From a virus, in the IMG/VR virus record IMGVR_UViG_3300029319_000432, positions 1-23,321 of that record: a stretch of 23,321 nt of DNA; one strand, written 5' to 3'. Of this stretch, positions 2,407 through 23,320 are shown in pieces. The translations under genes and the position numbers were made by a program. The first letter of the stretch is position 1; each line of letters starts with the position of its first letter. A model generated the notes under the pieces. It searched no databases. It was not told the DNA's origin and saw only the letters and a program-made list of their open reading frames with translations.

Positions 2407-2414
2407 TATTTATT
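2407..2414 (-). promoter_or_regulatory. T4-type late promoter candidate for the 736-aa fibre
   Basis: The minus strand reads AATAAATA (2414-2407), close to the T4 late -10 box TATAAATA, about 20 bases upstream of the fibre ATG. Its central TAA is the stop codon of the upstream oxygenase gene. Confidence 0.5.
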
Positions 2415-3039
2415 CACTTTCTTTATTACCAAAAAAACTCGTAATGGCATATCTCCCAAATCCATCATAGTAATCTGAATCTTTAATACTTACCTTAGTC
2501 ACTCCATGCTCAACCCATGCTGGCATTATAATTATAGAGTTGTTATCGCAACTAAACGAGTAATTATATTTAGGGAAGAATAATTCACCTCCTTCAAATC
2601 TTTTTGGTTCACGATAGAAGTAGGAAAAAGCAAGAAAATCAAAAAAATTATCTGTATGAGGCTCATAGAAATCACCATCATGATAGTATCTTACTTTTGT
2701 ATGGTCGTAATTAGATTGCATAGAGTGTAAACAACAATCATGCAATTTTGAGAATGGTTCTAATACCTGTGGTTCAAATACCTTACGATTAACTGTAAGA
2801 ATATTTGATAACTTTCTAAATTTTTTAGGATAAACAACATCAAGATAAATCGCTTTAGCATTTGTTTTATCAACAACTCCAAGATATTCTTTTACATCTA
2901 ATAACTTATCAGGTTTTGTGTAAAAATCTAGTTCCTCCCATATAAGTTTAAGTTCCTCATCATTATAAAAATTGTGAAGAATTAAATGGGGAAATGGTGT
3001 CTCGTATGCGTCTGCCTGTATTTGTTCTGTCATTTCCAA
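2410..3039 (-). CDS. 2-oxoglutarate/Fe(II)-dependent oxygenase
   Basis: This 209-aa protein has the prolyl-4-hydroxylase-like double-stranded beta-helix signature: the HxD iron motif at His128-x-Asp130 ('EPHTD'), 'EGGELFFP' at 149-156, the distal iron ligand His178 ('WVEHGV'), and Arg196 ('GRYAITSFF') positioned to bind the 2-oxoglutarate carboxylate. The enzyme should couple oxidative decarboxylation of 2-oxoglutarate to hydroxylation of a protein or small-molecule substrate. The substrate is unknown. It differs clearly from the other two oxygenases here, which use HxE and Lys. Its start overlaps the preceding 60-aa ORF by 10 bases, which implies coupled translation. Its stop codon lies within a late-promoter motif. 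Confidence 0.88.
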   Translation of the reverse strand: MEMTEQIQADAYETPFPHLILHNFYNDEELKLIWEELDFYTKPDKLLDVKEYLGVVDKTNAKAIYLDVVYPKKFRKLSNILTVNRKVFEPQVLEPFSKLHDCCLHSMQSNYDHTKVRYYHDGDFYEPHTDNFFDFLAFSYFYREPKRFEGGELFFPKYNYSFSCDNNSIIIMPAWVEHGVTKVSIKDSDYYDGFGRYAITSFFGNKESE

Positions 3040-3212
3040 TCAGGTGTTTCAGGATAATTTTCTTGAATATATTTGTTTACTTTGTGGAAACTCTCTTCCA
3101 TCCAATCTTCATATACAACAACACCATGTGGTATATGTTTCATGTCTTTGTACATTCTTTTTGTGTGTAAGATTCCTCTTAACAGTATGAGTTCATTACG
3201 ATTAATTTTCAT
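3030..3212 (-). CDS. Small hypothetical protein (60 aa)
   Basis: I do not recognise this protein. It is a mixed-charge, probably helical 60-residue protein with a Trp/Pro-containing C-terminus (ENYPETPDWK). No membrane segment or cysteine motif is visible. Its ATG directly abuts the TAA of the upstream 159-aa gene, and its 3' end overlaps the oxygenase gene by 10 bases. This tight packing supports it being a real gene and possibly working with that oxygenase. Confidence 0.6.
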   Translation of the reverse strand: MKINRNELILLRGILHTKRMYKDMKHIPHGVVVYEDWMEESFHKVNKYIQENYPETPDWK

Positions 3213-3692
3213 TTAAACAAAATTTTTCTTAGTAAACATTCCAAGTAATCCGTCATTTAATTCAACTTTATATTCTTTTGGTTGAAGTAGTGCATAGTCC
3301 ATTCTTTGCATTTCAATTCCATTTACAACTGGACTTCCATTAAAACATATGAGATAACTTTTTGAATCTCCAAAAAATGATTCTTTAATTAACTTGCCAT
3401 CCCAATCCTGACCAACTTTGAGTGGATTAAATCCATATAAATGAAATGGTTTTTCTGAAATATAAAGTCTATAACCTCCCATAAATGCTTTCTCGTCAAT
3501 GAAATTATTACCATCTGCATCCATTTCAATGTAATCTGTCTCAAAGGGTCTACACAACTTCCCCTTACCCTTTATTGCAATGTGATAGAGAGTGGTATTC
3601 TCTGCACCCTCTATACCAGCCTCTGCTCTATCTCCAATGACACCACAAATAGAGAACTCCTCACATTGTTTAAAAAATCTTTTGTAGGTCAT
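3213..3692 (-). CDS. Hypothetical protein, possibly cupin-like (159 aa)
   Basis: The function is not recognised. The protein is rich in alternating hydrophobic residues, as expected for a beta-sandwich or barrel. The last third ('SYLICFNGSPVVNG' through 'DYALLQPKEYKVEL') resembles the end of a cupin or HutD-like barrel, but no HxH metal motif is visible, so this is only a fold guess. The N-terminus has two cysteines (Cys10, Cys16). The ATG overlaps the stop of the upstream 115-aa gene by 4 bases, and its own stop abuts the next ATG, so it belongs to a coupled cassette between two 2OG oxygenases. Confidence 0.6.
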   Translation of the reverse strand: MTYKRFFKQCEEFSICGVIGDRAEAGIEGAENTTLYHIAIKGKGKLCRPFETDYIEMDADGNNFIDEKAFMGGYRLYISEKPFHLYGFNPLKVGQDWDGKLIKESFFGDSKSYLICFNGSPVVNGIEMQRMDYALLQPKEYKVELNDGLLGMFTKKNFV

Positions 3693-4036
3693 AATTCAAT
3701 CCTCCTCATCTTTAATGGGAATCTTTTTCTTCTAATATATTTACCCTCAACAACCTTATCAATTAAATCTCGTACATCAAATTTATCATCTATTTTTGTT
3801 GGTATATTTTCTGTAATTGTATCTAATTTATCTTCTTGCTCCTCAACTAATCTTAAACCATACTGTCTTATTAAACTGTCCGAAAAAGTAAAGTAATCAT
3901 AGGTGTCAAGATTTTTTAAATCAATCGCATATGATCTATACTCATCTATTGGTTTTCTAGATTTTTCATAACAAAATTTAACTGATATGGACTGTGCTTC
4001 CTCATCATATCTAACAATTTTAAAAATTATTTTCAC
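3689..4036 (-). CDS. Hypothetical protein (115 aa)
   Basis: The function is not recognised. The N-terminal half looks like a small beta-rich domain (MKIIFKIVRYDEE...ISVKFCYEK). The C-terminal half is charged and helical and ends in a basic stretch (KYIRRKRFPLKMRR). The start overlaps the end of the upstream 2OG oxygenase by 17 bases and the end overlaps the next gene by 4 bases. Its place among fibre genes makes a fibre-assembly role possible, but no chaperone motif is visible. Confidence 0.6.
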   Translation of the reverse strand: MKIIFKIVRYDEEAQSISVKFCYEKSRKPIDEYRSYAIDLKNLDTYDYFTFSDSLIRQYGLRLVEEQEDKLDTITENIPTKIDDKFDVRDLIDKVVEGKYIRRKRFPLKMRRIEL

Positions 4037-4598
4037 CTTGAATCACCCCCCATGATGTTGCAATATATTTAGTGCCACCAAGTGGTGGATTACCTCTGTG
4101 TGTATGTGTAAATGAGGCTGGAAATATCAGAACATCCCCTGCCACTGCTTCCTCTCTTCTCTGTTGATATAAAAATTCTGTCTCACCTCCATCAAAATCA
4201 TCATTCAAATAAACTTGAACAACAAACTGTCTGCGTGATACTTCTAATGCACCATTCTCATAATGCCACGCATGAAATCCTCCACCAGCCGGTATCTCTT
4301 TTAATTTAATATCATGCAGTAAAAATTTTCGTAAACCTAGCACTCCAAATGCCTGTAGATATTCATCCACACAAGGTTTAAGTTTAGGAAAAATATCCTC
4401 TGCAAGTCTGCTTGATGAAGAGAAATCATACTCATGTGTGATATTTACTGTCTTATGATCTTCCCTTGCTAATTTATTTTTATCATAGTAGAGTAGGTGA
4501 TTTTTTTCAAAAAAATGTATTCCCTCTATTATTCTCGTACAATCCTCTTTTGAGAAAGCACCACTATATCTTCTTATTAAATCAGTCTCAAATGCCAT
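4020..4598 (-). CDS. 2-oxoglutarate/Fe(II)-dependent oxygenase (HxE type)
   Basis: This 192-aa prolyl-hydroxylase-like enzyme has candidate iron ligands His112-x-Glu114 ('HAWHYE') and His165 or His167 ('FTHTHRGNPP'), 'GGETEFLYQ' at 137-145, and Lys177 ('KYIATSW'), probably binding 2-oxoglutarate. It is a clear paralogue of the oxygenase at 12307-12894, with ligands at identical residue numbers and the shared strings GGETEFLYQ and HRGNPP. It lies directly after the glycine-rich adhesin candidate (22-base gap) and overlaps the next small gene. The substrate is unknown; modification of a fibre protein or of a host protein or metabolite is possible. Confidence 0.87.
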   Translation of the reverse strand: MAFETDLIRRYSGAFSKEDCTRIIEGIHFFEKNHLLYYDKNKLAREDHKTVNITHEYDFSSSSRLAEDIFPKLKPCVDEYLQAFGVLGLRKFLLHDIKLKEIPAGGGFHAWHYENGALEVSRRQFVVQVYLNDDFDGGETEFLYQQRREEAVAGDVLIFPASFTHTHRGNPPLGGTKYIATSWGVIQGENNF

Positions 4599-12300: not shown

Positions 12301-12308
12301 TATTTATT
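12301..12308 (-). promoter_or_regulatory. T4-type late promoter candidate for the fibre chaperone
   Basis: AATAAATA on the minus strand lies about 15 bases ahead of the GTG start. It overlaps the stop of the upstream oxygenase gene (TAATAAATA). Confidence 0.45.
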
Positions 12309-12894
12309 ATATAAGGGTCGTTGGTTCACCCATATTATTGCTTGCTAGCCAACCAGTTGCGATATATTTTGCCTCATATGGAGGATTACCACGATGAAGA
12401 TGCGTAAAAGAGCCTGGGAAGATTAGTACTCTACCCCTCTTTGATTTTATTTTTTGTTTTTGATATAAAAATTCTGTTTCACCTCCCTCTTTAACATCAT
12501 TAAAATATACAGACCAAACTAAAGTTCTATTCGCACAGGCAATATTATTTGATTCAGAGTGCCAATCATGATATCCCTCCGTTGGTTTTGTTTTCTGTAA
12601 TAAACAGGTAGTGCTATGATAATTAAAATTTTTTAAAAATGGATACCACTCGATATATTCTTCTAAACACATTCTAACTGCACACATTATATGTGCAGAT
12701 ACCATTGGATTAAAGGCAGCGATGTCTAATTGAGTATCTTTAACACTTGTATTACTTCGTGGAATTATTTGAGTTGACTCATCAAGTGTTTTGATAATAA
12801 AATTACTGAAATCATCTTTTACTACATTATCCCACACTCCAATAAAGTCTTTATTTAAAAAGACTTCTGGGGTATTAAAATTTTTATCATACAT
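12307..12894 (-). CDS. 2-oxoglutarate/Fe(II)-dependent oxygenase (HxE type)
   Basis: This 195-aa enzyme is paralogous to the one at 4020-4598. The candidate ligands fall at the same residue numbers: His112-x-Glu114 ('HDWHSE') and His165 or His167 ('FTHLHRGNPP'), with Lys176 ('KYIATGW') for 2-oxoglutarate. It also shares 'GGETEFLYQ'. The N-terminal 60 residues differ, which suggests different partners or substrates. It lies between the collar-domain fibre and the fibre chaperone, so it is embedded in the adhesion module. The reaction should be 2-oxoglutarate-dependent hydroxylation; the substrate is unknown. Confidence 0.86.
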   Translation of the reverse strand: MYDKNFNTPEVFLNKDFIGVWDNVVKDDFSNFIIKTLDESTQIIPRSNTSVKDTQLDIAAFNPMVSAHIMCAVRMCLEEYIEWYPFLKNFNYHSTTCLLQKTKPTEGYHDWHSESNNIACANRTLVWSVYFNDVKEGGETEFLYQKQKIKSKRGRVLIFPGSFTHLHRGNPPYEAKYIATGWLASNNMGEPTTLI

Positions 12895-14499: not shown

Positions 14500-15029
14500 T
14501 ATCCCGGAAGTAAACTTTTATACCACTTGTTATAAGCAGCACTGAATGGTGATGTCAAACCATTTTTATACATGATTTTATTTCTCAAAGAGCATCTACC
14601 ACCTGCATTTAGTTTTATATTTTGTGCGTTAACTGTCACTTGATCGGTTTTACCTGCCGAATCATATCCTATTTTTATTTTAGGAGCATGTAAAACTAAT
14701 TCATCCTCTGCTTGAATGACTATCTTATCACCACTTATTGTAAAATTTCCATTTTCTGTAGTGATATTACCGTGACCATTTTTAACTCTGATATTAAATG
14801 CTTGTTCATTAGTTTCGCTTTTTACACCTGATTCAATCTGTAATCTTTTTTCAGCATAGATTCTCGAATCACCAGATCCCTCATGCAAACTTTGATTATA
14901 TTTTACCTTATCACTTGTCTGAGATGCCAAGACATATGCAGCAGGGCCGTTAGAATCTATACGATCAGTATTTGTTTCTAAGTATAACTTTTCACCAAAT
15001 ATCTCTAGTTGTCTTGCTTCACTTGACAT
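14499..15029 (-). CDS. Beta-helical baseplate spike-tip protein, gp5 C-terminal-like
   Basis: This 176-aa protein is made largely of short alternating beta strands (for example 'GNITTENGNFTISGDKIVI' and 'ELVLHAPKIKIGYD', residues 87-125), the pattern of the triple-stranded beta-helix forming the needle of T4 gp5 and similar spikes. The N-terminal 'EIFGEKLYLETNTDRI' has the same periodicity. It follows the OB-fold gene by one gene and precedes the collar fibre, consistent with a place at the baseplate centre. It may be the detached C-terminal part of gp5. An alternative is an unrelated fibre-base protein. It has an excellent Shine-Dalgarno sequence. Confidence 0.65.
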   Translation of the reverse strand: MSSEARQLEIFGEKLYLETNTDRIDSNGPAAYVLASQTSDKVKYNQSLHEGSGDSRIYAEKRLQIESGVKSETNEQAFNIRVKNGHGNITTENGNFTISGDKIVIQAEDELVLHAPKIKIGYDSAGKTDQVTVNAQNIKLNAGGRCSLRNKIMYKNGLTSPFSAAYNKWYKSLLPG

Positions 15030-17140
15030 TAGTATCCTCCGTAACCCCCACCTGATCCCTCAGACCCGCCACCACTAGGAGGACTAGGAGGAGCAGGAGT
15101 GTCACTCTGTCCAGTCGTTTGTTGACTTGGTGTATCAATCGTTCCAGTTTGAGTAGTAGTATTTGTTGTAGTTTGACTTGTTGTAGTGGTGTCGGGAACA
15201 TTTGTCTCTGTGGTTATTGGAACGGGTGCTGCTGAAGTTTCTTCGATCTCTCTAACTACATCTGGAGTGCTTACTTGCTGCTGAACTGTTTCGGATGAAA
15301 ATGCTCCGACACATTGAACAACCTTGAATACACCAGTTTGAGTTGGATCAGTTCTTCTTTCATCCCTCTCTGTAGTTAATATAGGTCTAATTATAGCTCC
15401 ATATCCAGTATCTGATGTAACTGATAAGTCTGGTAATCTATTATAGGGTATTTGTTCTACAATTTCAATAGCAGCGATACGACCATTTTGAATGATTGGT
15501 CTTATATCATCTGATATTTCAGCATCCTCATATCCTATTCCGGGATCTTCGATGATTACATCTCTTATGAATGCTTCCTTTTCCTCAGAACCATCAGTAG
15601 GGAAATTTTCACCCGGACTGAGAATTACAATTGAAGTCACTTGACCATAAGTTGGTGATTTCATATCTCTATCAACTATTGCTTTACCATAAGCTCCACG
15701 ACCTTGATTACATTTGTCATTAAAATCTATTAATGGGCCTTCTGCATAACCTTCACCCGGATTTGTAATATCCACACCAATGATACTCGCTGTTCTTGAC
15801 AAAGTGCCGAACATATCCTCTTTATCAAATTTTGATATGAAGTTTCCAAGTATTACTTTACCAGTCGCACCCTGACCACTACCACCAAAAATATCTATAT
15901 TCGCAGGGCCACAACTAAAGTTATTTCCAGTGTAACAATTACCACCACCGATACCATGATCTGCTGCCTCTCCAACTGTAGACCCAAATATTTTCCATTG
16001 CCCATACTCTTCTTCAAACTTTGATAGACCTGTAGGAAGTCCACTGTCCAAAAATCCTTTTGCCTTGTCTATCAATCCCGATGCTGTAGATGCTGCACCA
16101 AATGCTTGATCTAAAAGACCTTGACTTTCACCTTGTGATTTATCTTTTTTGCTACCATTATCAATTACAAACTTTGAAGAGGAGGTTTGTTTCTTAGGGG
16201 GTTGGCACTTGAATATGTTGCCAACTTTTTTCATAAAATCAATACCACCAAGAATTGTATCCTTTACATCAAATTTGGCACCTATGGGCCCAAGAATACC
16301 AAGAATTGGATTTAAAAGTGGTTTAGTAATTGCTTGCATAGAGTCAGCAATCTTGTTAGTTAGTCCCCCGATAAACTGTTGAATCGCACAAGTAGGAGCA
16401 TTCAACATATTTTTAGTCATACCGGTCAACATATCCTTTATTACTCCACCCATCGCACCAGTCACTTTAGATGTTAAGCATTCCATACCACTAAACATCT
16501 TATCTGTTACACCAGCTAAATTACCTGCCAGTCCTGTAACTATACCTAATGCACCCGGAATTTTACTTGCAAATATCTTACTGGCAAGTTTCGCCATACC
16601 ACCGTCAATAAAAGAAACTAAATTATCTTGCAAAGCATTGGATATTCTTCCTACAAATGTTTGTGATATGGAACCTATCGATTTAGTAAGTTTACCTAAT
16701 TCATTGGGTAAATCTGTAGTAAAATTATCAACCTTAGACACCATGCTAAAATAATTTTGCATCTTTGCTTCCACTTTCTCAAAAAACCTATCACTCACAC
16801 CATCAGGTAAAATAATTACATCACCAGTTGTTATTGAAAGTGGTTCAAGTGGGAATATTTTTGCCATTTCTTTGTATGACTTATTCCTATCGAGTAGTGA
16901 AGAGAATGCACTTTTGTCGAGAGACTCTAATTCAACTTCAGTAAATGGAGCAACATCAGCAAACTCTGTTGGAAAATTAGTTTTAAGCAAATTAATATTA
17001 TCCTCAAAACCAACAGGATTATCCTTGATTAATTGAGTAAATGTCGTAATCTGTTCAGGAGATAAGAAACTAGGTATCGGTGACTTATCTTTAAAAATCT
17101 GAACTGTTTCACTTTCTTCTGGTAAGAATTTGTCTGCCAT
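15029..17140 (-). CDS. Large baseplate/hub structural protein (703 aa)
   Basis: Its exact counterpart in T4 is not recognised. Residues about 1-150 are mixed helical. About 165-310 is a long Gly/Ala-rich amphipathic stretch with helices and cysteines. Residues about 455-590 contain repeats of a 'PGxGY' beta motif (TNPGEGYAEGPLIDF, SPGENFP, DPGIGYEDA). The last 85 residues are Thr/Gln/Ser-rich and end in Pro/Gly-rich SGGGYGGY, an extended linker. The gene lies between the OB-fold spike base and the beta-helical spike tip, so a hub or spike connector is the best guess. The terminal GGYGGY codons carry the ribosome-binding site of the next gene. A late-promoter motif precedes it. Confidence 0.7.
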   Translation of the reverse strand: MADKFLPEESETVQIFKDKSPIPSFLSPEQITTFTQLIKDNPVGFEDNINLLKTNFPTEFADVAPFTEVELESLDKSAFSSLLDRNKSYKEMAKIFPLEPLSITTGDVIILPDGVSDRFFEKVEAKMQNYFSMVSKVDNFTTDLPNELGKLTKSIGSISQTFVGRISNALQDNLVSFIDGGMAKLASKIFASKIPGALGIVTGLAGNLAGVTDKMFSGMECLTSKVTGAMGGVIKDMLTGMTKNMLNAPTCAIQQFIGGLTNKIADSMQAITKPLLNPILGILGPIGAKFDVKDTILGGIDFMKKVGNIFKCQPPKKQTSSSKFVIDNGSKKDKSQGESQGLLDQAFGAASTASGLIDKAKGFLDSGLPTGLSKFEEEYGQWKIFGSTVGEAADHGIGGGNCYTGNNFSCGPANIDIFGGSGQGATGKVILGNFISKFDKEDMFGTLSRTASIIGVDITNPGEGYAEGPLIDFNDKCNQGRGAYGKAIVDRDMKSPTYGQVTSIVILSPGENFPTDGSEEKEAFIRDVIIEDPGIGYEDAEISDDIRPIIQNGRIAAIEIVEQIPYNRLPDLSVTSDTGYGAIIRPILTTERDERRTDPTQTGVFKVVQCVGAFSSETVQQQVSTPDVVREIEETSAAPVPITTETNVPDTTTTSQTTTNTTTQTGTIDTPSQQTTGQSDTPAPPSPPSGGGSEGSGGGYGGY
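15035..15040 (-). promoter_or_regulatory. Ribosome-binding site inside the end of the 703-aa gene
   Basis: GGAGGA on the minus strand lies 5 bases before the ATG at 15029. It is the strongest Shine-Dalgarno sequence noticed here and encodes the last Gly-Gly of the upstream protein; stop and start overlap as TAATG. Confidence 0.75.
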
Positions 17141-17159
17141 AATTCTACTATTCTATACT

Positions 17160-17167
17160 TATTTATT
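17160..17167 (-). promoter_or_regulatory. T4-type late promoter candidate for the 703-aa gene
   Basis: AATAAATA on the minus strand (17167-17160) lies 19 bases before the ATG at 17140 and overlaps the TAA stop of the gp5-like gene. Confidence 0.5.
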
Positions 17168-17981
17168 AGTCAAATGTCAATAGATTTGACAATTCGTCTC
17201 TTACTTCATCTGATATTTCAAAACTTTCTGCTACATTTTTTAGTTGAGGGGTCAATCTTTCAGCAACATCTTTTAATTCATCAAATGGTGCTTCTTCGAT
17301 AATAGTGTCTTTCAAACTCGATACAGTTTCCTTAAGTTTACCAGATGCTATTTTACTTTCATTCACAATTTCTTTTATTGCTTCTTGATCTAACCCTTCA
17401 AAATCAAAATTTTTCAAACCTTTTGGTTCTTTATTGGTATTTACTTCTTGATTATTTGGATCAAGACCTGCCTTCTCTAATTTTTGACTGTTGACCTCTT
17501 TACCTTCACCACTTCCAGTTTTACCATCAGTGCCTAAACCCTGTGTTGGCATATTATCTTGTTGGTTAAATTCATTTTTTCCAGTACCCCCAGGCTTTAA
17601 CTCATCTGTATGTCCAGACCCAACACCAAATTTACCACCACAATCTTTCTTTGCAGGTGTTCTTCCCATGATACCAGTAATCACAGGAAAATTTTGATCT
17701 GGTGATAAAAAGAATCCAAAAACAATATCATTCTGAGTAATCTTGACTGATTTCATTCTGTTTGCTGCACCACTTCCATCAGTCACACCTAACATCACAA
17801 CTGCTGTATGACAATCTTTATCCTCCACATTATCATTCTCAGAATATGTGCCCATGATGCGTACTTTGAACCTATGACCCCATCCCATACCATTTAGTTG
17901 AGCCTTCTGTGCCTTTTGGGATACGACTTTACCTATCCAAGGTTCAAGTTTTGAATTAAAAAAACTAGGTAATTCAAACAT
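17166..17981 (-). CDS. gp5-like OB-fold baseplate hub protein without lysozyme domain
   Basis: Residues about 14-110 ('WIGKVVSQKAQ...HRFKVRIMGTYS...NDIVFGFFLSPDQNFPVITGIMG') match the OB-fold that opens T4 gp5 and related spike proteins, where it joins the gp27 cup to the spike. T4 gp5 (575 aa) then has a lysozyme domain and a beta-helix. Here the fold is followed by a Gly/Asn-rich linker (about 115-170) and a charged helical tail. No glycosidase motif is visible. It starts with a TGATG overlap on the gp27-like gene, the expected structural partner. Confidence 0.75.
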   Translation of the reverse strand: MFELPSFFNSKLEPWIGKVVSQKAQKAQLNGMGWGHRFKVRIMGTYSENDNVEDKDCHTAVVMLGVTDGSGAANRMKSVKITQNDIVFGFFLSPDQNFPVITGIMGRTPAKKDCGGKFGVGSGHTDELKPGGTGKNEFNQQDNMPTQGLGTDGKTGSGEGKEVNSQKLEKAGLDPNNQEVNTNKEPKGLKNFDFEGLDQEAIKEIVNESKIASGKLKETVSSLKDTIIEEAPFDELKDVAERLTPQLKNVAESFEISDEVRDELSNLLTFD

Positions 17982-19243: not shown

Positions 19244-20235
19244 TATACTGGTACTGCTACATTAGTTTGAACGATCTGTCTTTGAACAACGATAGTTTTA
19301 CTACCATTAGTGCTACTACCATTATTTAACATAGAAACAGTGTCGTCAGTTTTTGCCTTTAATTTTGATGCATCGATTTTTTGAACCTTTCCATCTGAAT
19401 CTTTCACGAGGATTGTAAATTTAGAACTTGTGTCAATTCCTAATTTTTTTTGATAAAATTCTATTTTTTTCTCAACACCTTCTAATTTTGCGGTATCACC
19501 TGATTCTATATACTCAGCTCTTCTGATTAAGGCATCATCTAGTTTTTCTTGATAGAATCCCTGTTCTTCAAGTTCTCTTGCTGTTTTAGTTTCATTCCCA
19601 GTTATTGTATTGTCTCCACCCTCAGTGGTTGTCTCAGTTGTTACAGTAGTCGTTGTGCTATTTTCTGTTCCACTTGTACCAGATCCACCACTACTAGTTG
19701 AGGCACCAGACTTTTCAGCAGCCTTTTCAAAATCACCTGTAAGTTTTCCAACTTGATTTGTAATATCATTAAGGGGTTTGAGTTGTTTTTTTAAATTCTC
19801 AGCATCATCTACTAATTTTTTATTTTTTTCACTTTTATCATCAAATTTTATACCAGTCACAAATGAAATGAATGGTTTAAAGAAGTTAAAAACTCTACCA
19901 AAAAATCCTGAGATTGACTCGAATACCTTTTTAATTGTACCCATCATTTTTGGAAGTGCATTAAGGAGAATACCAGTTAATACGATGGTTCCAAATTTCA
20001 TAATGTTATCAAAAACATTTGCGACCTTTTTCACTGGTGATTTAAGAACACTTATCTTTTTTGGTTTTTTTGTTTGTTCAATATTTTTCTCTTCTTCTTG
20101 TACTAATTTCTTTTGTTCAATATCTTCAAGTAATTTCTCTTTTCTTATTTTTAATATTTGAGTTCTCTTAGTTCCAATTAGTAAAGAACTTCTAATGTTA
20201 GATACATTTATTTTAAGTTGTTCAGCCTGTTGCAT
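19243..20235 (-). CDS. Tape-measure-like virion protein (330 aa)
   Basis: No specific family is recognised. The N-terminal 60 residues are charged and coiled-coil-like. Residues 75-130 form a hydrophobic amphipathic region (FGTIVLTGILLNALPKMMGTI, then an FF-rich stretch). Residues about 180-210 are a Ser/Gly/Thr-rich linker, and the rest is helical, ending in TIVVQRQIVQTNVAVPV. This layout resembles the 511-aa gene upstream and is typical of tape-measure or ejected tail-lumen proteins. Coupling on both sides (TAATG) and its place before the gp27-like hub suggest it acts in the tail tube or hub. T4 has no clear equivalent. Confidence 0.6.
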   Translation of the reverse strand: MQQAEQLKINVSNIRSSLLIGTKRTQILKIRKEKLLEDIEQKKLVQEEEKNIEQTKKPKKISVLKSPVKKVANVFDNIMKFGTIVLTGILLNALPKMMGTIKKVFESISGFFGRVFNFFKPFISFVTGIKFDDKSEKNKKLVDDAENLKKQLKPLNDITNQVGKLTGDFEKAAEKSGASTSSGGSGTSGTENSTTTTVTTETTTEGGDNTITGNETKTARELEEQGFYQEKLDDALIRRAEYIESGDTAKLEGVEKKIEFYQKKLGIDTSSKFTILVKDSDGKVQKIDASKLKAKTDDTVSMLNNGSSTNGSKTIVVQRQIVQTNVAVPV

Positions 20236-21770
20236 TATTCAATACCTAAGAGTTGAGGTGTAAACATCATATAATCATTCAAAGGATTTATTGAACTTAC
20301 TGGTTCTGCTTCGTTTGCAACCACACCATTCTTGATGGGTACATCAGGCATTGGAGTAGTGATAGGTGGTAAATCCTCAGTAATTATGTTAACTTGATTT
20401 GCACCATCTGCTAACATAGCAAGAGTTTCATTACTATTTGTTATCTGACCATCAGTATTTGGTGTAAACAATTCAGGGCCTTGTTCTCCAACGAGATAAG
20501 ATCTACCTCTTGCACCCCTACCACCTCTTTGTAGTCCAACAATATCTGGAATTTTTGCTTCAAAGTCTGCCCTGACCTGTGCTTCTAAATCTTTTTTCTT
20601 CTGATTATCTTCTTTTGTAAAATACTTATCGCCTTTATCCCTACCAGCCGTTCTCACACCAGACATTGTTACAGTTGCCTTCTGTTTATCCATCTCTGCT
20701 CTCATATCGTCACGAAGTTGATTTAACTGTTCCCTTTTTTTCAACACATCATCTAATATTTTTTGCTCCTCTGCATTTAACTCTCTTCTAGAACCCTTTC
20801 CTTGTGCTATTTGTTTTGAATTTCCAGTAAATACCCTGTAATTTTTACCAACCTTTCTGATATTATTATCCTTTAATATTTGATCTAATTTATCATGAGC
20901 ATCTTGGAAGTTTGATCCACCAGTAACTTTATTTTGAACAAACTCCATGAGTTTACCACCGGCAATGGCAATACCTATCGGTGCACCAATTAATGCTATC
21001 GCACCTAATATTACTGGGTTTGCCATAACAAATGCTAAACCACTAAATGCAATTTTTATTGCTCCTATCACACCTGTAAGTGAACTAATTAAAGGTAGTG
21101 CAGCAAGAATACCCATGCCAGCTAGTATAAACTTAGCATTCTTTTGTATAAATCCAAAGAATTTTGCTATCTTTTCAGAGTTCTCAGGATTTCTAATAAA
21201 TTCAAAAGCAGCATTTCCAAGTATACCGACTCCAAGTATACCTGCTAAATCCAATAGTTTTTGAAATGCACCGGTCACAGGTTGCAATGCCTTCATTGAC
21301 ATTTTCTTTAAACCACCTGCAACTTTTTTACCAGAACTTTCTACACTTTTTTCTTCTTCTGCTACTTTACCCTTATTTTGTTCCTCTCTGAGTGCGTCTA
21401 TCTGTGCTTTTTCTTTTTCTTGTTGTATTGAAAGGTCTGTTGATATGATTCTTGCAATATCTGCCAGAATCATATTTGACTGCATTAAAATTTTTTCAGT
21501 TCCTTTAGCATTTTTGTTCATCAACTTAGCAGCATTCAATTTTTTTTGAGACTTTTGAAATTCTCTTAAGTTGATATCTGCCTGTACCTCTGCAAGTGTC
21601 TGTAATTTTTTAGGTCTTCCTCTTCTCTTTTTTGGTGCCACATCACCACCATCATCCACACCCATGTCCATGACTTTGGTGACTTGCATTTTTGGTGTTT
21701 GTCTCTTTTTCTTAGATGCCTTTGCTGCTGAAGCAGCAATTTTAGCAACAGAGAGAATGGGTAATGGCAT
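20235..21770 (-). CDS. Tail tape measure protein candidate (gp29-position)
   Basis: This 511-aa protein follows the gp26/gp51 chaperone pair, the position of the tape measure after tail chaperones in many phages. It has a basic N-terminus with an AT-hook-like KKRRGRPKK (47-55), long charged helices (about 60-150), a hydrophobic Gly/Ala-rich core (about 170-280), a second charged helical part, and 'GRSYLVGEQGPELFTP' (about 421-436), the GE-x-GPEL motif common near the end of tape measure proteins. T4 gp29 is 590 aa, so the length is reasonable. It would set tail length and leave with the DNA. Sequence similarity to gp29 itself is not evident by eye. Confidence 0.7.
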   Translation of the reverse strand: MPLPILSVAKIAASAAKASKKKRQTPKMQVTKVMDMGVDDGGDVAPKKRRGRPKKLQTLAEVQADINLREFQKSQKKLNAAKLMNKNAKGTEKILMQSNMILADIARIISTDLSIQQEKEKAQIDALREEQNKGKVAEEEKSVESSGKKVAGGLKKMSMKALQPVTGAFQKLLDLAGILGVGILGNAAFEFIRNPENSEKIAKFFGFIQKNAKFILAGMGILAALPLISSLTGVIGAIKIAFSGLAFVMANPVILGAIALIGAPIGIAIAGGKLMEFVQNKVTGGSNFQDAHDKLDQILKDNNIRKVGKNYRVFTGNSKQIAQGKGSRRELNAEEQKILDDVLKKREQLNQLRDDMRAEMDKQKATVTMSGVRTAGRDKGDKYFTKEDNQKKKDLEAQVRADFEAKIPDIVGLQRGGRGARGRSYLVGEQGPELFTPNTDGQITNSNETLAMLADGANQVNIITEDLPPITTPMPDVPIKNGVVANEAEPVSSINPLNDYMMFTPQLLGIE

Positions 21771-21946
21771 TATGAGTTACTTTGTTGTCTTTTTAAATTT
21801 TCTTCTTCAATATATTGTTTGAGTAAAGCGACATATACATCTCTTTCCCAAGGCATCATGTTTTCAATCTCAGTTAATGAGTATTTATGATGCTGAATCA
21901 TGGCAAAATTAATTTTATAGTATGACTCCAGATTCGTGTGGGCCAT
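21770..21946 (-). CDS. 51: gp51-like baseplate hub assembly / tail chaperone extension (58 aa)
   Basis: This short ORF reads MAHTNLESYYKINFAMIQHH and continues KYSLTEIENMMPWERDVYVA up to a TAA that overlaps the tape-measure ATG. The 'HHKYSLTEIENMMPWERD' core is the kind of sequence annotated gp51 (hub assembly catalyst) in marine T4-like phages and is also like the C-terminal part of tail assembly chaperones. It lies in the -1 frame relative to gp26 and starts 2 bases after gp26's stop. No proper Shine-Dalgarno sequence precedes its ATG, whereas a -1 frameshift signal does. It may be made mainly as a gp26-gp51 fusion. Confidence 0.75.
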   Translation of the reverse strand: MAHTNLESYYKINFAMIQHHKYSLTEIENMMPWERDVYVALLKQYIEEENLKRQQSNS

Positions 21947-21961
21947 ACCTAGCTGAAAAAA
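21919..21961 (-). promoter_or_regulatory. Programmed -1 frameshift signal joining gp26 to gp51
   Basis: The minus strand near the end of gp26 reads GCT TTT TTC AGC TAG, containing the canonical heptamer T TTT TTC in phase (21961-21955). Five bases later, GGTATG (21949-21944) pairs with CATACT (21924-21919) to form a possible stimulatory hairpin. Slipping by -1 gives ...Phe-Phe-Gln-Leu-Gly-Met-Ala-His and continues in the gp51 frame without a stop, predicting a fusion of about 298 aa. Confidence 0.65.
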
Positions 21962-22665
21962 GCAGCTAAACCCTCCAATACAATATCTGATTCAACTCCA
22001 GTTTTTGGATTTGTAACCTTAACTTTATGGGATAATTTAGGCATTGAATCAAAAAACTTTTCAACCTCTTTAAATTGTTTGGTATTTAATTGATCAATAA
22101 ATCCATCCAACTCCTCTTGAGTGCATTCATCAGCATCCCAACTCTCCTCCTCATCATATACCATATCAATACAACCTGATAACATACTAAGAGATTGATT
22201 TACATTTGTTGATTCAACATCAAAATTATTTTCTATAAATTGTTTCATTGAAGGATACTTCAATTTCATAGAATACTTATCGTCAAGTTTAATAATACTA
22301 TTATGACCTTTAGTTTTTTTGACTTTGATAGAGTCAATGTTCACAGCCATTTCAACAGCAGTAACACCATCATCAGGGCAAGTCACATTTACTTCAACTG
22401 TTTCTCCTACAGACTTAGATCGAACATTTAGAAATAAGTATTCAATATCAAATGTAGGTAAAGTAGTAACATCTACATTTTTAGTTAAAATACATGATGT
22501 TAGTATATCAACAATCGCATCACTTACTTGCTTTGAGTCATTTGATTCTAGAGCAAGAATTAATATTTTTTCTTCACGAACAAGAAATGGGCGATACTTA
22601 ACTTTTTTATTATTCGATGGCAACACCAATTCATAAGTTGGAGTACTAATCTTTGGTAAAGGCAT
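21949..22665 (-). CDS. 26: Baseplate hub subunit / tail chaperone gp26
   Basis: This 238-aa protein carries the recognisable gp26 family pattern: 'KYRPFLVREEKILILALES' (23-41) and 'FDIEYLFLNVRSKSVGE' (72-88), followed by a small beta domain with 'CPDDG' (97-101) and a helical acidic C-terminus. T4 gp26 is needed for hub assembly and is similar in length (208 aa). It sits just ahead of gp51 and the tape-measure candidate, the gene order of two-part tail chaperones. Its last codons contain the slippery site. A CTAAATA late-promoter-like motif lies about 21 bases upstream of the ATG. Confidence 0.85.
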   Translation of the reverse strand: MPLPKISTPTYELVLPSNNKKVKYRPFLVREEKILILALESNDSKQVSDAIVDILTSCILTKNVDVTTLPTFDIEYLFLNVRSKSVGETVEVNVTCPDDGVTAVEMAVNIDSIKVKKTKGHNSIIKLDDKYSMKLKYPSMKQFIENNFDVESTNVNQSLSMLSGCIDMVYDEEESWDADECTQEELDGFIDQLNTKQFKEVEKFFDSMPKLSHKVKVTNPKTGVESDIVLEGLAAFFS

Positions 22666-22699: not shown

Positions 22700-23320
22700 T
22701 CACGAATCTATTTGATTCGCAACTATATAGCGATCATAATTGAAACTAACAGTTACTTTCAATAAGTCTGCTGCTCCATATGTCACTGGCATGGGTGATA
22801 TTGCTTTTGGAAAAGTATTAATGAATTGATATCTCAATTTCCTTTTCATATTCTTTTCAAACTTCGTGATAAACATAGTATCACACTTATAAGAATCAGG
22901 ATATCTCATTCTTCGATAGAATGGTTTTTGAAAATCAGCAACTTCTCTTTCTGCACCACTAGAAATATAGTCCATCCAACCCTCAAAGATATTCAATAGT
23001 GTATAATCTTCATCCACATAAAATGTAAAGTCAATATCTGTATATAACCTTGTATGAGCAAACTCTTGCGGTACACCCATAAAATTATCCTTTACTTCTG
23101 CTGTCGCATATGCGGTTGCAGGTAGTGATGCATCATTACAAAGAATTCCAGCCTCTCGACTGATAAAGTCTTGTGCATTATCAATTCTTTTATCATATCT
23201 AAGATAATTTATGACAGCACCATTGATGCCAGCAAAATGTACTTGATATTGATTATTCAGCGATAAACTACCAAATTTGACTTTGGCATCGGTCATCGTG
23301 ATTTTTTGTACAAAACTCAC
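22700..23320 (-). CDS. Tail tube family protein (gp19/gp54-like), 5' end uncertain
   Basis: The visible 206 residues match the gp19 tail-tube fold by pattern: an opening strand pair with 'NQYQVHFAG', 'CNDASLPATAYATAEV' (about 60-75), 'TDIDFTFYVDEDYTLLNIFEGW' (93-114), 'MFITKFEKN' and a final beta-strand set with 'LKVTVSFNYDRY'. T4 has three proteins with this fold: gp19 (tube), gp54 (tube initiator) and gp48 (tube cap). Next to gp26, a gp54-like initiator is more likely than the major tube protein, but this is uncertain. The first codon in the window is GTG at 23320 and an ATG follows at residue 9. The frame is open to the window edge, so the gene may extend further. Confidence 0.65.
   Translation of the reverse strand: MSFVQKITMTDAKVKFGSLSLNNQYQVHFAGINGAVINYLRYDKRIDNAQDFISREAGILCNDASLPATAYATAEVKDNFMGVPQEFAHTRLYTDIDFTFYVDEDYTLLNIFEGWMDYISSGAEREVADFQKPFYRRMRYPDSYKCDTMFITKFEKNMKRKLRYQFINTFPKAISPMPVTYGAADLLKVTVSFNYDRYIVANQIDS

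Follow-up and report, generated by a model that had tools for sequence, protein, structure and literature searches.

Whether gp26 and gp51 of marine T4-like phages are two separate genes, or the two parts of a single tail chaperone gene read in two frames, is the question raised by a locus in a viral stretch of 23,321 nucleotides (IMG/VR record IMGVR_UViG_3300029319_000432, positions 1 to 23,321), referred to here as the window. Vladimirov, Gautam and Davidson (2022, Virology 566:9-15) are said to have found frameshifting kept in several T4-like groups, with T4 itself reportedly using genes 26 and 51. Passages in citing papers credit Vladimirov et al. 2022 with poly-T -1 signals in the TAC-N genes of T4-like phages (PMC12846349) and with the finding that some T4-like phages carry a separate short and a fused long chaperone gene (PRFect, PMC10274946); going by these citing papers, the T4-like tail chaperones described there are the same genes as those treated here. 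The kind of system is already known and its core idea is in print. What is gained is detail and annotation and no new mechanism: added here are a Shine-Dalgarno-like (SD-like) element, the missing start codons of gp51, and the locus of the window itself.

The gp26-gp51 junction and the proposed slip

The features of the locus, all on the minus strand, are the following; spacer and stop codon were read directly from the sequence.

22700..23320, minus: upstream ORF of the tail tube family (PF23849 Phage_TTP_2, E 2.9e-20; phrog_45 tail tube, E 2.2e-36), its 5' end near the window edge
22665-21949, minus: gp26 ORF, 238 aa (PF12322, E 2.2e-72; phrog_150, E 1.6e-78)
21972..21975, minus: internal SD-like GAGG, inside GGAGGG (21976-21971), 10 nt before the heptamer
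21961-21955, minus: candidate slippery heptamer U UUU UUC, in phase with gp26
21954-21950, minus: spacer AGCTA, 5 nt
21949..21951, minus: gp26 TAG stop, bypassed by the proposed -1 slip
21919..21949, minus: stem-loop with arms GGTATGGC (21949-21942) and GTCATACT (21926-21919)
21770..21955, minus: -1 extension of QLG, 58 codons and TAA, the putative gp51-like C terminus of the long chaperone
21946-21770, minus: gp51-like ORF, 58 codons (phrog_634 'baseplate hub assembly catalyst', E 2.5e-28)
20235..21770, minus: downstream ORF, 511 aa, probable tape measure protein, with no informative family match

The gp26 ORF scores 243.7 bits against PF12322 (cut-off 24.5) and its 3' end reads ...GAG GGT TTA GCT GCT TTT TTC AGC TAG. 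Across the junction the -1 frame reads AAFF-QLG-MAHTNL and enters the gp51 ORF, so that the predicted -1 product comprises 237 + 61 = 298 aa. The gp51 ORF also matches positions 239-278 of phrog_150, past gp26, which fits a family with fused members such as T4 gp51. In the window a tail-tube-family ORF, gp26, gp51 and the putative tape measure ORF follow one another; in HTVC008M tail tube, gp26 and gp51 are followed by one extra ORF and a putative tape measure gene.

An earlier note on this DNA had described an in-phase U UUU UUC in the last gp26 codons with a 5-base spacer, a slip that passes the gp26 TAG into a 58-codon gp51 ORF, a 6-bp hairpin, and a gp51 that ends on the ATG of the tape measure gene. 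Direct reading bears out the heptamer, the spacer and the open frame. The hairpin is likewise present 5 nt after the heptamer, but its length had been understated, as GGTATGGC and GTCATACT form 8 contiguous bp including G-U. The gp51 TAA does overlap the ATG of the next ORF (TAATG); that this 511-aa ORF encodes the tape measure protein is probable from its position and sequence character, and the family models named none.

In our preferred reading, which we give a probability of about 0.93, gp26 and gp51 are one tail chaperone gene, and a -1 slip on U UUU UUC yields its long form. Most ribosomes would stop at the gp26 TAG and release a short chaperone of 238 aa, while some would slip back one base on the heptamer and complete the 298-aa form with its gp51 tail. 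The GAGG 10 nt upstream would pair with 16S rRNA and, like the stem-loop 5 nt downstream, would probably raise the slip rate, both as in dnaX. Lambda G/GT offers a model for the division of labour: the N-terminal part would hold on to the tape measure protein, and the tail part would draw in tube or hub subunits. The analysis itself shows the cis-elements and the frame, their conservation, the constraint on codons, one stem pair that covaries, the family membership and the similarity in fold. The slipping itself, its rate, the function of the SD-like element and the chaperone role are what we infer from this arrangement.

Conservation of the heptamer and codon constraint

Taken alone, the heptamer of the window is weak evidence, because this AT-rich DNA has many in-phase heptamers: 22 chosen ORFs contain 58 of the form X XXY YYZ in 7620 codon positions, although TTTTTTC itself is found a single time on the minus strand of the window, versus 14 times on its plus strand. 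We therefore rely on a sample of 158 loci, made up of 80 and 71 loci from two IMG/VR scans, one from a third scan, five named phages and the window. From 596 and 600 relatives, respectively, the two large scans each retained the best 80, and the sample consequently leans to close relatives. With gp26 of Rhizobium phage RL2RES as query against viral contigs one relative was found, and with that of Vibrio phage D486 none.

An in-phase T TTT TTN at the gp26 end, together with an open -1 frame, is present in 157 of the 158 loci, including the window. The last base is C in 155 of these (TTTTTTC) and G in two (TTTTTTG), and the heptamer lies one codon before the stop in 156 and directly before it in one. 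All 157 -1 extensions are open; 154 end at 57-68 codons and three run off the contig. The sole exception is L143, in which gp26 and gp51 form one continuous in-frame ORF (2501-3391) that has no heptamer and is either a natural fusion or an assembly error. A search of the L143 record for a second gp26-type gene returned one match in 236,016 bases (the record may be incomplete), and with one PF12322 gene in its record L143 does not point to two genes arranged as in T4.

Named phages extend this picture. A gp26 relative is present in 708 named phage records, of which few were read and 12 were picked for spread (HTVC008M among them). In all 12 gp51 lies in the -1 frame; the slip sites are TTTTTTC in seven, TTTTTTT in two (phiM19 and HTVC008M), and G/C TT TTT only in three. 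The earlier note had proposed a comparison of the junction across relatives, and had held that homologues without a slippery site, or with gp51 in another frame behind its own ribosome binding site, would refute the proposed slip. Among frameshift-type relatives no such outcome was seen: the T-run and the -1 frame recur in 157 of 158 loci, and the frame in 12 of 12 named phages, three of which lack a canonical heptamer. These three, Vibrio phages labelled Ackermannviridae (L176, L177 and L179), have gp51 in the -1 frame and only GTTTTT or CTTTTT at the gp26 end, close to the GTTTTT motif reported in a passage on phage Adele (PMC12846349).

Dereplication of the 157 heptamer loci at <90% nucleotide identity left 124 (L143 was left out); about 500 nt were compared ungapped, so that indels inflate the distances. 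The heptamer is retained in 124 of 124 loci, a set of heptamer loci only, versus 12.3 expected from amino acids and codon usage. The codon before TTT ends in T in all 124 by the selection rule, yet does so via five different codons (Ser, Ala, Asn, Asp). Ranked by synonymous constraint among 236 gp26 columns, codon 237 (TTC) is first, 231 (GAG) fourth, 235 (NNT) fifth, 238 sixth and 236 (TTT) sixteenth. Since the relatives are not independent, p-values overstate the case. It is conservation, rather than the site itself, that makes a convincing argument for the slip site, as far as can be judged from sequence.

Could such constraint have another cause, such as RNA processing or conservation of the two Phe at the protein level, with the fusion not made or not needed? 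Codons 3, 13 and 12 near the 5' end of gp26 also rank second, third and seventh (biased to TTA at 3, GAG at 12 and TTG at 13, positions 22659-22627 of the window, across 124 relatives). The constrained 3' codons, on the other hand, coincide with the slip site, and in 7 of 11 T-even-type gp26 ends, where no shift is required, the two Phe are retained but encoded as TTC TTT; a cause of this kind appears barely credible. The T6 run might alternatively cause slippage of RNA polymerase rather than of the ribosome, and its conservation, as well as its lengthening to T7 in phiM19 and HTVC008M, would be in keeping with this. Polymerase slippage would not need the C ending, which is kept in 122 of 124 dereplicated loci, and six T residues are a short run for it; the SD-like element upstream and the stem downstream are of the kind that stimulates ribosomes. 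We regard the polymerase as a very improbable source of the fusion, and continue with the ribosomal slip.

Elements flanking the slip site and the start of gp51

The slippery sequence of E. coli dnaX is A AAA AAG, and its shift shortens the product rather than extending it. The likeness to the window lies in the layout of upstream SD, slippery sequence and downstream stem-loop (passages in PMC5009743 and PMC5600365). For -1 shifting, with dnaX named, the reported SD spacing is 9-14 nt (PMC5009743), a range into which the GAGG of the window falls, as it ends 10 nt before the heptamer; with the stem 5 nt downstream the window has the complete tripartite layout.

The earlier note had missed this conserved SD-like GAGG. 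Glu codon 231 of gp26 is GAG in 107 of 121 loci versus 814 of 2857 Glu codons (28%) elsewhere (p 3e-43), and in 46 of 55 within the set of 57 loci of <75% identity (p 7e-17). Of 24 E-G pairs at other places, 5 have GAG. In a scan from -150 to +40, mean anti-SD pairing peaks at -17 to -15 from the heptamer (-7.3 to -7.5 kcal/mol), and between the heptamer and the gp51 ATG it is weak (+3.0 to -1.5 kcal/mol). Among the 12 further named phages, three (Ah1, VH7D and HTVC008M) have GAGG at 9-10 nt, so that the element is not universal. A comparable GAG preference (86 of 105) is seen at Glu codon 12, which lies far from the slip site, and the bias alone is therefore no proof of an SD element. A literature search, with most subscription journals outside its reach, found no report of an SD element at the frameshift site of a tail chaperone gene; a candidate element of this sort is an addition made here, as a case of codon constraint.

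For the hairpin, the minimum free energy fold of the window adds 3 bp past a bulge and reaches -12.9 kcal/mol, which is only moderately unusual (z -1.96; 11 of 200 shuffles are as stable). In the 68 loci of the window's GTATG clade a 10-pair stem is 99.1% paired, versus 22-44% for partners slid by 1-3 positions, and one of its pairs covaries: T-A in 45 loci, A-T in 13, G-C in 5, C-A in 3 (the window among them) and A-A in 2. A second change, from C-G to T-A, was found in one locus. Most stem pairs hardly vary, and the covariation in the clade consequently rests on one pair. Outside the clade (54 loci) the stem of the window is 53% paired versus 27-50% for slid controls, and some of these loci fold other hairpins, e.g. 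CTCTAG...CTAGAG. A single consensus stem for all clades was rejected, as RNAalifold found no common structure among the 122 loci in register (two of the 124 were dropped as too short). The region folds more stably than synonymously shuffled versions of the -1 frame, with a mean z of -2.36 and p <0.05 in 69% of 121 loci versus 31% that do not fall below this value.

The start of gp51 bears on the question of one gene or two. In 122 of 157 loci one of extension codons three to five is an ATG, while the other 35 have no ATG in the first 18 codons. In 25 of the 124 dereplicated loci none of ATG, GTG and TTG is found in the first 8 extension codons, with frame and protein conserved (TTG is the ninth codon in six of them). 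Deeper in the extension, each of the 35 loci without an early ATG does have one, from which a shortened separate gp51 is possible. It is conceivable that gp51 is made as a separate protein by translational coupling, with ribosomes restarting at a nearby ATG after the gp26 stop: the ATG stands close by in the 122 loci, an SD-like element before a gene end could serve restarting according to a passage in PMC5009743, and GenBank annotates gp51 as separate, e.g. in P-SSM4. This reading is difficult to reconcile with the 25 loci that lack a start codon and nevertheless keep frame and protein, and with a distance of about 25 nt from GAGG to ATG in the window; moreover, it leaves the fixed TTC and the preceding T-ending codon unexplained, and T4 gp51 and L143 each hold both parts in one ORF. 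Coupling therefore seems to us an improbable account, and we retain frameshifting as the probable entry into gp51.

The annotation of gp51 differs among records. It is given from an internal ATG in Syn9 (L172, 1771-1914) and in HTVC008M (L182, 16366-16503), and the records of ACG-2014d (L081) and Sf-CH1b (L082) carry no gp51 annotation. If the real entry is a frameshift, as is probable, gp51 is misannotated or absent there, which suggests that it is mis-started or missing in several of the public records checked, namely these four.

Relation to T4 and to known tail assembly chaperones

The arrangement in T4 is different, as gp26 and gp51 are two genes on opposite strands. T4 gp51 (249 aa) has PF12322 over residues 1-201 followed by a phrog_634 tail, whereas T4 gp26 consists of PF12322 alone; with its PF12322 domain and gp51-type tail, the predicted long form of the window belongs to the same gp26/gp51 family. 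The heptamer is absent from the last 10 codons in 11 of 11 complete T-even-type gp26 ends (out of 12 loci). The family of T4, Straboviridae, is also the one under which VH7D and Ah1 are listed, so that both arrangements occur within it. A tree of 40 rows (7 T-even-type gp26, 7 T-even-type gp51 and 26 labelled frameshift-type, including the shift-less L143; gp51 fragments were left out of the alignment) places T-even-type gp26 and gp51 in two separate clades apart from the 26 frameshift-type rows (support 87/78, unrooted).

A fold model was made of the natural fusion L143 (pLDDT 88, pTM 0.82). Its best structural match after re-alignment of 1000 PDB chains is the tail assembly chaperone of HK97, 2OB9 (Z 7.4 over 84 residues, rmsd 3.7), followed by 3FGX (Z 7.1), and the next entry reaches 4.8. 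The match to 2OB9 spans model residues 1-86, and structural matches cover at most the N-terminal 96 residues; a Z below 8 can reflect a common arrangement, and the result is to be read as fold similarity only. A Foldseek search against the PDB gave no significant match (2OB9 at rank 31, E 3.8), and in a viral structure library most of the top matches that carry a name are baseplate hub or gp26 proteins. As modelled, the short form appears to share the TAC fold in the sense of fold similarity. 3FGX is counted as a tail assembly chaperone in a passage of PMC9603447.

The earlier note's comparison with lambda G/GT, in which gp26 would be the short and gp26-gp51 the long member of a chaperone pair, gains support at the level of sequence and fold, the top structural matches being tail assembly chaperones. 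In lambda, according to passages in PMC5009743, a -1 shift near the end of the short chaperone gene gives a minor long form (gpG/gpGT), in which the binding partner of the G part is the tape measure protein and that of the T part the major tail protein; the same source, of 2016, calls G-T shifting widely conserved 'except T4'. The TAC locus of phage Adele and Vandenendeviridae likewise has a conserved -1 frame and a poly-T motif at the TAC-N end, but the motif is GTTTTT and the phage families are others (passage in PMC12846349). Both T4 gp26 and gp51 are listed as hub assembly chaperones in a passage of PMC3004832.

It is somewhat more probable than an even chance, in our view, that a full dnaX-type signal governs the marine T4-like chaperone, that gp51 is not an independent gene and its annotated starts are artefacts, and that duplication has split this same system into T4 genes 26 and 51. 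If true, the hub assembly genes of T4 would be the short and long forms of a chaperone, the ratio of which was once set by frameshifting.

The lambda slippery sequence is G GGA AAG and differs from that of the window.

Elsewhere in the window, two adjacent minus-strand ORFs (15029-17140 and 17166-17981) match successive parts of phrog_1922 (932 positions), a hub subunit and tail lysozyme, and the pair is either a gp5-like gene divided in two or the result of a broken frame. Three further minus-strand ORFs (2410-3039, 4020-4598 and 12307-12894), judged by eye from their motifs, resemble 2OG-Fe(II) oxygenases. Several 2OG-Fe(II) oxygenases are likewise annotated in HTVC008M.
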